39,067 nucleotides of DNA, from positions 1 through 39,067 of the forward strand of contig NZ_FRCW01000016.1 in NCBI RefSeq assembly GCF_900143055.1. Direction: 5' to 3'. Positions 26,070 through 30,316 of the stretch are shown piece by piece (within the stretch, counting starts at the first letter, position 1; the number at the start of each line of letters is the position of its first letter). Under the pieces are notes generated by a model, which searched no databases, was not told where the DNA came from, and saw only the letters and a program-made list of their open reading frames with translations. The stretch comes from Fibrobacter sp. UWR3 (lineage in GTDB: Bacteria; Fibrobacterota; Fibrobacteria; Fibrobacterales; Fibrobacteraceae). The position numbers and the translations under genes are program-made.

Positions 26070-26996
26070 GTGGTTGCAGTGATTTGCCCAAAATGTAATC
26101 AAAAATACGAAGATGATATGCCTCGCTGCCTGTGGTGTGACGCAGTAAACCCCAGTTATAGTATGAATAAGATTAAGTCGCAAATTAATGAGGACTTGAA
26201 AACGGATGCTTTGGAAAAAGATGTAGAAACGTCTAAAGGAACAATTGTTTTTTGGCTTGCTACTTTAGGTGGAGAATGTGGATTGCATCTTTTTATGACG
26301 GGGTACTATTTAAGAGGTCTCGCCTATCTTCTTTTTGGAAGTTTTACTTATTCACTTCTATGTGGATTCTTTGGTATGTTTGTTTTTCCCTTTTATTTTT
26401 ATTTTGTTGCACCTGCTGCGGTTGTGACAATTAGATTTCTATGCTTTTGTGATTTGTGGAGTATTTGTCATGGGAAATTTTTTAACAAGAGAAAGAAAAA
26501 TGTGTTCAGCGCAGCCAAATGGATGAATGTGTTGCTCCCTGTTGTTGGCTGTTTTTACCTGCTAATTTCAGGGTTAGAGTGCTTAAATCAATTTGCGAAT
26601 TATTCAATAATTGGTCAAAAAAGGTTGGAATCTGTTTTGCAAGCATATGTTGATTGTCAAGAAAAATATTTTATGCAGAATAATAAAATAGGGACTGTTG
26701 ATGAGATAGACTTTGATTCGATCGTTGATATAAATACCAACTATTTCACGTATAAAGAAATCAAAAACGGGATTGAAATTGAGAATCTTACATCGTACGG
26801 ATCATGTCAAAATCATTCTAAATGGAGGATTACAGCTGAATTTGAAAAAAAATTGAATTGGAAAATTGATTTGCCAGAAGAAAAATTTTGCAAAAAAAAT
26901 TTTCCTAGAATAAGTGAATATAAGGAGAAAATTGAGAATTTTTGGGTAGTGTCAAGGGTTTTTCGCAAAAATAGTTTGTTCCAACATCAGATTTAG
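26070..26996 (+). CDS. Zinc-ribbon membrane protein, 3' end altered by an IS element
   Basis: A protein of unknown function. The N-terminus has a CPKCNQKYEDDMPRCLWC zinc ribbon (two CxxC pairs). Three or four hydrophobic segments follow between about residues 60 and 180, and then a hydrophilic C-terminal part. The gene is strikingly AT-rich (16 G+C in the 60 bases at 26641-26700), unlike its neighbours, which suggests recent acquisition. Its last ~15 codons (ending RVFRKNSLFQHQI) lie in the end of the IS256-type element, so the native C-terminus is lost and the present stop comes from the insertion. TAGGAG at 26061-26066 is 3 nt from GTG 26070 and 12 nt from GTG 26079, so the start is uncertain. 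Confidence 0.7.
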   Translation: MVAVICPKCNQKYEDDMPRCLWCDAVNPSYSMNKIKSQINEDLKTDALEKDVETSKGTIVFWLATLGGECGLHLFMTGYYLRGLAYLLFGSFTYSLLCGFFGMFVFPFYFYFVAPAAVVTIRFLCFCDLWSICHGKFFNKRKKNVFSAAKWMNVLLPVVGCFYLLISGLECLNQFANYSIIGQKRLESVLQAYVDCQEKYFMQNNKIGTVDEIDFDSIVDINTNYFTYKEIKNGIEIENLTSYGSCQNHSKWRITAEFEKKLNWKIDLPEEKFCKKNFPRISEYKEKIENFWVVSRVFRKNSLFQHQI

Positions 26997-28296
26997 GCTA
27001 CATTTCCTTTCTTTCCGTGTTTTTCCAGTTCACGTTTCAGTTCGTTTTCCTTTTCCTGCTCGTATAGGTGTTTCATGTTCAGGTACCTCTTGGTGCCCCA
27101 TTCCTTCGAAGCGACATGCCTTAGCCTTGCGCAGACAAGCATAAGGGCCGATTCCCCGTCCGGGAAGCAGCCGACAACACGAGTCCTTCTGCGTATCTCG
27201 CGATTCAGCCGTTCGAGGATGTTGTTCGTCCGGATATTGCGCCAGTGCTGGCTGGGGAACTCCAGGTACGTCAGCGTTTCGCCAACTCCCTTCGCGTACA
27301 TGTCCGCGGCCGAGTTCAGTTTCATCTCGCGCAACTTGCGTTCAACATCCTTGATCTTGGCTAGCGTGGCCTCGCGGTCCTCCTGGGCGTAGGTGGCCTT
27401 GAGGAGGGCGGCCACTGCGGCGAACTTGTTGCGGGGCACCTTCGTGAACACGTTCCTGAAGAAGTGAACCGTACAGCGCTGCCATTTGACATCCGGGAAG
27501 ACCTCCGATGCGGATTCCAGGAAGCCCAGGTGCTTGTCCGAGGTGAACAGGCGCACCCCCTTCAGGCCGCGTTTCTTCAGGCTTAGCAGGAACGATTTCC
27601 AGCATTCCTTGCTCTCGCTCGCACCTTCCGCCGCACCGAGGATTTCGCGGTAGCCGTCGCCGTTCACGCCTATGGCCACAAGCACCGACACGCTGGTCAT
27701 TTCGCCTCCCCAGCTGCGCTTCAGGTAGATGCCGTCCACGAACACGTAGGGGTATTCGCCGGAGAGTGGTCTGTTGCGCCACTCCTCGATCTTGCCGTAC
27801 ACCTTCTGGCTCAGGTTGCTGACCGTTGAGGCGCTTACGCGGGAGCCCCACAGGAGTTCGGTGACGTCCTCTACGCGGCGAACGGATACGCCCGCAAGGT
27901 ACATCTCGATGAGCGATTCCTCCACGGACGATTCCCTGCGCCGGTAGCGCTCTATGATGGCCGTCTCGAACGGGGCCAGGCGCAGTTTTGGTACGGCGAT
28001 GTCGAGCTCTCCCGCGCCCGTGAGGAGTTTCCTGTGGTAGTGGCCGCTGCGGTAGTTCCTGCGGCCTTCGGAGCGTTCGTGCTTCTCGGCATTGCAGAGG
28101 TCTGCCGCCTCCTCGTCTAGCATGGCGTTGAGCGTGTCCTCGACTGTGCCACGGATGAGCGTTTTCAGGTCGTCCTTGAGGCCGGCTTCGTCGATTTTGA
28201 TTATATTTCTTTCCATAGGATGGTCCTTTTTTTGTGTTTGATTTGTGGTTATTTCAAATCTAAAAATTGGAACATCCTATTTTTTTACCCCCTTAG
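26953..28296 (-). mobile_element. IS256-family insertion sequence (boundaries approximate)
   Basis: A complete element of about 1.34 kb holding one transposase gene. The ends share an imperfect inverted repeat: the left end reads CAAGGG, then AAAAATAG, TGTTCCAA and AGATTT going inward; the right end (minus strand) reads CTAAGGG, AAAAATAG, TGTTCCAA and AGATTT with small indels. A clean 8-9 bp target duplication was not found, so the exact limits could be off by several bases. The interior is GC-rich (35 of 60 at 27541-27600) and sits in AT-rich DNA. The left end supplies the stop codon of the zinc-ribbon gene. Confidence 0.8.
26993..28216 (-). CDS. IS256-family (mutator-type) transposase
   Basis: A full-length transposase of 407 aa that catalyses copy-paste transposition. 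The DDE residues are recognisable: the first Asp in YVFVDGIYLK, the second in VRLFTSDKHLGF, and the Glu in NNILERLNREIRRRTRVVG, which is the usual family signature. The CTVHFFRNVF segment is also typical. The N-terminal part is the DNA-binding region. ATG 28216 follows AAAGGA with 7 nt spacing. No frameshift or stop is seen, so it may be active. Its stop overlaps the end of the zinc-ribbon gene by four bases. Confidence 0.96.
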   Translation of the reverse strand: MERNIIKIDEAGLKDDLKTLIRGTVEDTLNAMLDEEAADLCNAEKHERSEGRRNYRSGHYHRKLLTGAGELDIAVPKLRLAPFETAIIERYRRRESSVEESLIEMYLAGVSVRRVEDVTELLWGSRVSASTVSNLSQKVYGKIEEWRNRPLSGEYPYVFVDGIYLKRSWGGEMTSVSVLVAIGVNGDGYREILGAAEGASESKECWKSFLLSLKKRGLKGVRLFTSDKHLGFLESASEVFPDVKWQRCTVHFFRNVFTKVPRNKFAAVAALLKATYAQEDREATLAKIKDVERKLREMKLNSAADMYAKGVGETLTYLEFPSQHWRNIRTNNILERLNREIRRRTRVVGCFPDGESALMLVCARLRHVASKEWGTKRYLNMKHLYEQEKENELKRELEKHGKKGNVA

Positions 28297-28449: not shown

Positions 28450-29262
28450 TTATTTGTTGATGGCGGCCAGGAACGCGTCCTTCTTTTCTTGCAGGAATTC
28501 CTTGCTGTTGTACTTGCGGATGCGGCGCAGAGCCTGGTCACGCAGCTGGCGTACGCGTTCGTGCGAGATGTTCATGGACTCGCCGACTTCACGCAACGTC
28601 TGCGGGGCTTCCTGGTTGATACCGAAGATGCCGGTGATGACCTTTGCTTCGCGTTCGGGCAGCTGTTCCATCAAGTCGCGAGCGAGCATTTCGACGCTCT
28701 GGATTTCGGAATCGGCTTCCGGGTTCGATGCGCCGGTATCGGGCAACACTTCGGCGTACGTCGCCTTGGAGTCTGCCTTCAGCGGGCTATCGAAGGAAAC
28801 GCCGCGCTGGCCAATCTGAATGAGCTCACGGATTTCTTCGTTGATTTCCTTACCGCGGGACTGCTCGTGCAAAGCCTTGCGCACGCGAAGGTGCTGGTTT
28901 GCCGGCAGGCGGATGAGGTTACCCTGCTCGTTGATGGCACGGGTAATGTAAGCCTTGATCCACCACACGCCGTAACTGATGAACTTGAGACCGCGGGTGT
29001 GTTCGAACGACTCGATGGCGCGCACGAGGCCCATGGCGCCTTCGCTCACCAGGTCCGGGAGCGGAATGGGGCAGCCGCGGTACTGGATGGCGACCTTCAG
29101 CACGAAACGCATGTTCGCGGAGATAAGTTTCTTGCGGGCTATCTTGTCACCTTCTTTTGCTTTCTGGAAAAGAATCTGCTCTTCTTCACGGGAAAGGGGA
29201 GCGGTCCTTCTAATATCTTCAAGGTAACGCTTGAGTGTGGTATCGGTGGAATCTATATGCAT
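28450..29262 (-). CDS. RNA polymerase sigma-70-family factor without region 1.1
   Basis: A 270-aa sigma factor with regions 1.2 to 4 but no region 1.1, as in Bacteroidota primary factors. Region 1.2 is LKRYLEDIRRTAPLSREEE. Region 2 includes ANMRFVLKVAIQY, LVSEGAMGLVRAIESFE and FISYGVWWIKAYITRAI. Region 3 starts NLIRLPANQHLRVRKA. Region 4.2 is TLREVGESMNISHERVRQLR, the -35 recognition helix-turn-helix. The start is ATG 29262 with AAGGAAA upstream; a longer frame to 29343 lacks sigma homology and covers the promoter. It could be the housekeeping factor or a group 2 factor. The sigma-54-type promoter upstream favours a regulated, RpoS-like role, though other promoters may exist. Confidence 0.9.
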   Translation of the reverse strand: MHIDSTDTTLKRYLEDIRRTAPLSREEEQILFQKAKEGDKIARKKLISANMRFVLKVAIQYRGCPIPLPDLVSEGAMGLVRAIESFEHTRGLKFISYGVWWIKAYITRAINEQGNLIRLPANQHLRVRKALHEQSRGKEINEEIRELIQIGQRGVSFDSPLKADSKATYAEVLPDTGASNPEADSEIQSVEMLARDLMEQLPEREAKVITGIFGINQEAPQTLREVGESMNISHERVRQLRDQALRRIRKYNSKEFLQEKKDAFLAAINK

Positions 29263-29300
29263 TTTATTTCCTTGCCCCTTAAATATCGCTTTTTTTATTA

Positions 29301-29316
29301 GCAAGTAACGTGCCAA
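29301..29316 (-). promoter_or_regulatory. Sigma-54 (-24/-12) promoter of the sigma factor gene
   Basis: Minus-strand TTGGCACGTTACTTGC followed by T matches the RpoN consensus TGGCACG-N4-TTGCW at every defined position. The start site would be near 29289, giving a leader of about 27 nt that includes the ribosome site of the gene starting at 29262. Confidence 0.75.
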
Positions 29317-29421
29317 AAGTGTAAAATTTTCGTGGGTTTTCAAAAAAATGTTTATTTGGCGCGAAAAAGACGGTTTAGGGACCTGTTTTTGACTATTTCT
29401 TGTCTTGTTTTCTAGAATTTA

Positions 29422-29436
29422 GTTACAAAATGTAAC
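29422..29436. promoter_or_regulatory. Palindromic operator or enhancer site
   Basis: GTTACA-AAA-TGTAAC is a perfect inverted repeat. A wider one, ACAAAAT (29426-29432) with ATTTTGT (29448-29454), overlaps it. It lies about 130 bp upstream of the predicted sigma-54 start, a normal place for an activator, and about 100 bp before the plus-strand methyltransferase gene. Confidence 0.45.
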
Positions 29437-29521
29437 AAATGTCACGAATTTTGTAAATAGGGACAGCGGTAAATAGAGCAGAATCTATCTCATACAATAC
29501 TCTCCTTCTGTTCTATTTTCG

Positions 29522-29536: not shown

Positions 29537-30316
29537 ATGTCAATTAAAGAACCCGATCAATCTGTATGGAACCGTTTTTGGCAGCGTAAAAACGACATGG
29601 ACAAGGTGTATCCCTCGTCTCCGTCGGTGCTGAATGCTATTAAGAAGAACTTTAAGCTCCAGGGGCTAAAAATCCTGGAGGTGGGTGCGGGTACGGGTCG
29701 AGACAGTGCGGAACTTGCGAAGCTGGGGGCGGATGTCTACGTTCTCGACTTTGCCGAAAACAGCCTCAAGATTGTCGATGCGCTCCGTGCGCGTGAAAAC
29801 CTTTACGATAACTTGAAACTCGTCCGTGGCGATGCGTTCAAGGCGCCCTTCCCGGATTGCACTTTTGACTTGGTGTTCCATCAGGGTTTGGCGGAGCACT
29901 TCAAGGATTCGCTCCCGCTCATCAAGGAGAACTACCGCATCTTGAAGCATGGTGGGTGCTGCCTCTGCGATGTGCCGCAGACGGTTCACCCCTACACGGT
30001 CATCAAGCATATCTTGATTGCGATGGACAAGTGGTTCGCCGGCTGGGAAAAGCAGTTTACCATGGGACAGTTGAAAAAGCTCATGGTCGATGCCGGGTTC
30101 AAGTGCGAATATGCCTACGGCGACTGGATGCGCCCGAACCTGTTCTACCGCATGCTTCGCGAACTCGGGTTCAAGCTCGGGGTGGAACTCCCGAAGTACC
30201 CGCTCAACGGCACCGCGTACCAGAAGGCGAAGGATGCTATCCTTGATGCGCTGAAGTCTGTGCCGGTCATGCACTACACGCAGCTCTCTATTGGAGTCAT
30301 TGGCCGCAAACCCTAA
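29537..30316 (+). CDS. Class I SAM-dependent methyltransferase
   Basis: A 259-aa methyltransferase of the UbiE/Methyltransf_11 type; substrate unknown. SAM-binding motif I is ILEVGAGTGRDSAELAKLGA (residues ~43-62), with VYVLDF as motif II, VRGDAFKAPFPDCTFDLVFHQG as motifs III/IV and LKHGGCCLCDVP as the post-I strand. No signal or membrane segment. ATG 29537 fits the promoter spacing; TTG 29528 lies within the promoter box. Only 3 nt separate it from a UPF0104 membrane protein gene, so a lipid or lipid-linked substrate is a reasonable guess, but nothing in the sequence proves this. Confidence 0.88.
   Translation: MSIKEPDQSVWNRFWQRKNDMDKVYPSSPSVLNAIKKNFKLQGLKILEVGAGTGRDSAELAKLGADVYVLDFAENSLKIVDALRARENLYDNLKLVRGDAFKAPFPDCTFDLVFHQGLAEHFKDSLPLIKENYRILKHGGCCLCDVPQTVHPYTVIKHILIAMDKWFAGWEKQFTMGQLKKLMVDAGFKCEYAYGDWMRPNLFYRMLRELGFKLGVELPKYPLNGTAYQKAKDAILDALKSVPVMHYTQLSIGVIGRKP

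Follow-up and report, generated by a model that had tools for sequence, protein, structure and literature searches.

A Conserved Putative Sigma-54 Promoter Upstream of a Clade-Specific Sigma-70-Family Gene in Fibrobacter Suggests a Two-Step Sigma Cascade

Introduction

The closest known cascade to the arrangement described here is the Rrp2-RpoN-RpoS pathway of Borrelia burgdorferi (PMC2940757, PMC3037356). In Borrelia, as predicted for Fibrobacter, a sigma-54 promoter drives a sigma-70-family gene and an enhancer-binding protein (EBP) is needed, a role that we infer for the Fibrobacter EBP. The Fibrobacter sigma factor differs in that it is not RpoS and comes from a different phylum. Fibrobacter also has a conserved candidate DNA-binding palindrome upstream of the gene, and sigma-54 sites before chaperone genes. 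The Borrelia cascade holds for Fibrobacter as an analogy only.

A survey of predicted sigma-54 regulons reported that GroES, GrpE, DnaK, and Hsp20-type genes were enriched behind sigma-54 promoters in Bacteroidota and Planctomycetota, and that sigma-70/sigma-32 genes (COG0568) were associated with sigma-54 (PMC12316311). The main text of the survey does not name Fibrobacter, which adds to it a sigma clade, two palindromes, and family-wide conservation.

Fibrobacter is an important rumen plant-fibre degrader (a gut cellulose-degrader), and its gene regulation is little known. In E. coli, the rpoH and rpoD genes have extra stress promoters, and sigma-54 makes a minor contribution to rpoH. The Fibrobacter gene resembles them as a sigma gene with a promoter predicted to be read by another sigma factor, but no feature near the start of the gene is as well conserved as its sigma-54 site. 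The open-licence literature searched contained nothing on sigma-54 in Fibrobacter, and a two-step sigma switch has apparently not been described before in this group. A conserved cascade from sigma-54 to a second sigma factor, together with sigma-54 control of chaperones, would provide a concrete, testable wiring diagram. Its elements would be promoters, two different putative activator sites, and seven EBPs as candidate activators, and the cascade would be a further natural case of sigma-54 driving a sigma-70-family factor, comparable with that of Borrelia.

Results and Discussion

Predicted Promoter Site in Front of the Sigma Gene

The window is the whole 39,067-nt stretch of Fibrobacter sp. 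UWR3 DNA that was analysed. The following features surround the start of the sigma gene.

28450–29262, minus strand: sigma-70-family sigma factor, 270 aa (Pfam PF00140, PF04542, partial PF04539, and PF04545), with orthologues in 80 loci and a clade of its own
29300–29315, minus strand: predicted sigma-54 −24/−12 promoter TGGCACGTTACTTGCT, an exact consensus match, unique in the window
29289, minus strand: predicted transcription start at the G of GCGATATT, placed by the sigma-54 spacing (12 nt after the GC)
29263–29289, minus strand: predicted 27-nt leader with an AAGG ribosome-binding site (29270–29273), the AAGG being present in most orthologues

The sequence TGGCACGTTACTTGCT matches TGGCACG-N4-TTGCW exactly, with the GG at 29313–29314 and the GC at 29301–29302. 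No other exact match occurs in the window, and dinucleotide shuffles average 0.02. When two mismatches were allowed, the window contained 6 matches against 6.8 expected, so among the window matches the exact site alone stands out. The ATG of the sigma gene (29262) lies 27 nt past the predicted start, and GCGATATT was found again just 3′ of TTGCT in most orthologues. If TTG at 29343 were the start codon, the sigma ORF would be longer and would span the promoter site. The spacing between the site and the ATG varied from 51 to 109 nt among the orthologues, with indels that break the frame, which indicates that the promoter site is non-coding. The preliminary description of this DNA had proposed a perfect sigma-54 promoter on the minus strand, with a leader of about 27 nt and outside the coding part of the sigma gene; all of this agrees with the present results. 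The GATATT 3′ of the site was considered as a −10 box with its −35 element inside the sigma-54 site, and was rejected. Its spacing would be 21–23 nt and no −35 element is conserved 17 nt upstream, so GATATT was taken as the start of the transcript.

Conservation of the Promoter Site

The orthologue set consisted of 80 loci and the window (81 in total), and the orthologues with 99–100% protein identity were named F. succinogenes or Fibrobacter sp. A GG-N10-GC sequence near the consensus was found before the ATG in 75 of the 81 loci, reaching down to approximately 71–74% protein identity. These sites were divided into 38 exact matches and 13, 21, and 3 matches with one, two, and three mismatches, respectively. 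In the 66 Fibrobacteraceae-like orthologues, TTGGCA and TTGCT were invariant and the flanks drifted; across these rows the information content was 1.85 bits in the fixed columns and 0.48 bits in the upstream flank. The invariant columns are the sigma-54 contact positions. The GG and GC dinucleotides, which the preliminary description had suggested comparing, were unchanged in the close relatives that retain the site. The distant Fibrobacteria (71–74% identity) had forms such as TGGAACGGCTATTGCT, and 8 of 9 loci reached P ≤ 0.05 against shuffles.

The sigma-54 consensus is short, and scaling the window shuffles to the genome gives approximately two exact matches expected by chance. Pattern searches found 17 exact sites in the genome, located before coherent genes, and the site in front of the sigma gene is invariant across orthologues. 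These results make a chance match extremely improbable. The promoter is very likely real and functional, judged from its sequence and conservation. The site was absent in L111, L115, L116, and the Candidatus Fibrimonas loci L128–L130, where rpoN is present. This indicates that some lineages can do without sigma-54 control.

Upstream Palindrome and Divergent Gene

The region between the sigma gene and its divergent neighbour contains the following features.

29422–29436, minus strand: palindrome GTTACATTTTGTAAC, a candidate EBP site about 107 bp upstream of the promoter, unique in the window at two or fewer mismatches
29439–29458, minus strand: ATTTACAAAATTCGTGACAT, a degenerate form of the palindrome of the orthologues, at the EM motif position, overlapping a weak sigma-70-type promoter match
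29537–30316, plus strand: divergent SAM-methyltransferase-like gene, its function read from the sequence

An unbiased palindrome-constrained motif search of the 180 bp upstream identified TTGTCAT-N6-ATGACAA in the orthologues; in most Fibrobacter the motif and the −24 element are about 110–145 bp apart, and in some it is nearer. With two or fewer mismatches, the palindrome was present in 39 of 75 rows and in 1 of 1500 shuffles. The general form GTYAY-N5/6-RTRAC, located about 70–145 bp upstream in most Fibrobacter, is conserved together with the promoter. The distant loci have a 15-bp version, such as GTCATAATTTATGAC in L119. The tblastn search of neighbours showed that the divergent methyltransferase-like gene is a conserved neighbour in Fibrobacteraceae, and did not find it at the more distant loci. 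Perfect palindromes occur at the distant loci L118, L119, L120, L122, and L126, where the gene was not found, which weakens the idea that the palindrome belongs solely to the methyltransferase. The palindrome is likely an activator site, as suggested by its conservation with the promoter. Activator control had been part of the preliminary description; the conserved upstream palindrome fits it, and the copy in the window strain is degenerate.

The promoter scan showed a weak sigma-70-type match (TTTACA-17-TACATT with TG, 29457–29429) that overlaps the palindrome and may be a second promoter. The sigma gene might be transcribed mainly from it, under the control of a repressor or an activator that binds the palindrome, and the sigma-54 site would then give a conditional boost. 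The layout of GTCAT-N6-ATGAC, 5-6-5 as in CRP/FNR-type sites, is in line with this arrangement, as is the retention of the gene in some lineages without the sigma-54 site. However, the consensus match is weak, the sigma-54 site is the invariant block in the 66 orthologues, and no comparably conserved −35/−10 pair was found within 45 bp on either side in these orthologues. We consider transcription mainly from the sigma-70-type promoter somewhat unlikely and retain the sigma-54 site as the predicted promoter.

RpoN, Enhancer-Binding Proteins, and Proposed Mechanism

The preliminary description had pointed to rpoN and EBPs as the genes to look for. The genome has a single copy of rpoN, which is retained in 19 of 19 relatives checked, and encodes seven strong EBPs, each with AAA+ and Fis-type HTH domains. 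GAF matches were found in three of them (one below the family cut-off) and a receiver domain in one. The orthology was too weak for EBPs to be assigned by presence and absence across genomes, and this approach was dropped. To name the GAF-type EBP of L003 as the activator of the sigma gene is only a guess.

In the proposed mechanism, RNA polymerase carrying RpoN would form a closed complex on TGGCACG-N4-TTGCT. An EBP on the GTYAY-N5/6-RTRAC palindrome would loop over and open this complex by ATP hydrolysis, and the sigma factor so produced would then direct the polymerase to another group of promoters. We infer the binding of the activator and its timing from this arrangement. It is highly probable that the site works as an EBP-activated sigma-54 promoter and serves an alternative sigma factor specific to this clade. 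A cascade from sigma-54 to a sigma-70-family factor, with its putative second set of promoters, is likely.

Identity of the Sigma Factor

Six proteins with sigma-70 region 2 were found in the genome, of which three are long (the window sigma, L015, and L016). The window sigma contains regions 1.2, 2, partial 3, and 4. It scored far under the RpoS, RpoH, and RpoD cut-offs, with 194.5 bits for the RpoS family TIGR02394 (cut-off 378.7) and 125.6 bits for the RpoH family TIGR02392 (cut-off 323.1). Against the sequences of solved structures in the PDB, SigA ranked first (144 bits) and RpoH was far down (74 bits). The phylogenetic tree placed the window sigma in its own supported clade (99/98), separate from the L015 type and from E. 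coli RpoD, RpoS, and RpoH, with the deep branching left unresolved. Identification as RpoS was rejected by the family score and the separate clade, and as RpoH by the family score, the structure-sequence ranking, and the tree. The RpoN-RpoS-like cascade of the preliminary description thus holds for a sigma-70-family gene behind a conserved sigma-54 promoter, and fails in that the driven factor is not RpoS.

Region 2.4 of the window sigma reads WWIKAY, versus WWIRQ in L015 and RpoD. In region 4.2, H replaces the first R of RERIRQ, and region 3 is shortened. The altered residues of regions 2.4 and 4.2 include −10-contact residues, and the promoter preference therefore probably differs.

The window sigma had no orthologue outside the class Fibrobacteria, where the identity was only 35–39%, whereas the L015 type was present in 61 of 61 genomes of the phylum. 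This makes L015 the better candidate for the primary sigma factor. The identity of the window sigma was 96–99% in the genus, 91–97% in the family, and 72–73% in the class, and that of L015 was 87–98%, 78–87%, and 61–62%, respectively. Throughout the class, the window sigma has diverged less than L015, the presumed primary sigma factor; such strong conservation is odd for an alternative sigma factor.

The rpoD gene of E. coli has a heat-shock promoter. The window sigma may similarly be the main housekeeping sigma factor of the class Fibrobacteria, with the sigma-54 promoter as a stress-inducible extra. Its better conservation at all three levels agrees with such a role, and region 1.1 is present in none of the three long sigma factors of the genome, so length singles out none. 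In contrast, the phylum-wide presence of the L015 type, the class restriction of the window sigma, and the RpoD-like WWIRQ of L015 as opposed to WWIKAY and a shortened region 3 make a housekeeping role quite unlikely. The window sigma is probably not the primary sigma factor. Downstream of its gene, a 407-aa minus-strand ORF (26993–28216) resembles an IS256-type (mutator) transposase, judged by eye.

Sigma-54 Sites Before Chaperone Genes

About 15 of the 17 exact sites in the genome were closely followed by an ORF start. Exact sites precede dnaK, htpG, a ClpB/ClpC-like ATPase gene (called clpB), glnB (P-II), and a glutamate synthase-like gene; further ones precede a purF-like gene, dapF, spoVG, a porin-like gene, Rpn-type nucleases, and others. 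Sites with one mismatch precede groES, grpE, and hsp20 in the same genome. The sigma-54 site was found at dnaK, groES, and clpB in 26 of 26 Fibrobacteraceae genomes each; the htpG, grpE, and hsp20 sites were seen in the genome of the window strain. The dnaK site is retained in part of the more distant members of the phylum, and the dnaK and groES sites are lost in the sister family f2.

The palindrome TGTTTCA-N3-TGAAACA (two or fewer mismatches) was found in 24 of 26 genomes at dnaK and likewise at groES, and random sequence had at least four mismatches. An exact copy lies downstream of the sigma-54 site of htpG in the genome of the window strain. HrcA was absent from this genome, the one searched. 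RpoN appears to carry the chaperone genes in Fibrobacter through a putative activator site unlike that of the sigma gene. Because the two palindromes differ, a different EBP probably triggers the chaperones, and one common activator for the chaperones and the sigma gene was not supported.

The window sigma could be a heat-shock sigma factor equivalent to RpoH, with an RpoN trigger in common with the chaperones and a positive loop acting on them. Sigma-54 control would be common to the sigma gene and dnaK, groES, clpB, htpG, grpE, and hsp20, and region 2.4 contains an RpoH-like WIKA. However, the chaperones have their own sigma-54 promoters with a different palindrome, the window sigma is closer in sequence to SigA/RpoS than to RpoH, and in the class relatives of family f2 the sigma gene retains its site whereas dnaK and groES lost theirs. 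A heat-shock identity is therefore unlikely. We favour a clade-specific alternative sigma factor that would be one arm of a stress and nutrition network centred on RpoN, in which the same RpoN would drive the six chaperone genes through the other palindrome and probably another EBP. A stress role of the window sigma is plausible given these sites. We speculate, as a possibility rather than a probability, that Fibrobacteraceae replaced RpoH/HrcA heat-shock control by RpoN. Under this scenario, sigma-54 would switch on, via separate activators, both the chaperones and an extremely conserved sigma factor specific to the class. RpoN would then be a central regulator of stress with a second-tier sigma factor of its own.

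Other sigma-54 sites were accompanied by other elements. The 20-bp element TGATTTAA[GT]CGATTAATCA preceded the sigma-54 site by an almost fixed distance of about 74 nt at L023, L024, L025, L030, L034, and L141. The genes concerned encode Rpn-type PDDEXK nucleases, SpoVG, and a Gp49-like protein, and were read as another sigma-54 module under an operator of its own. TTTTACA-N5-TGTAAAA palindromes were found at the dapF and purF sigma-54 promoters (L035 and L036) and near a GAF-type EBP in L004, and these sites probably represent a nitrogen or biosynthesis module. The exact site L031 (C4:124649) lies after the GAF-type EBP gene of L003 and before a gene for a small, apparently secreted charged protein without a Pfam match. 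L047, another small protein of this kind, has a sigma-54 site with one mismatch.
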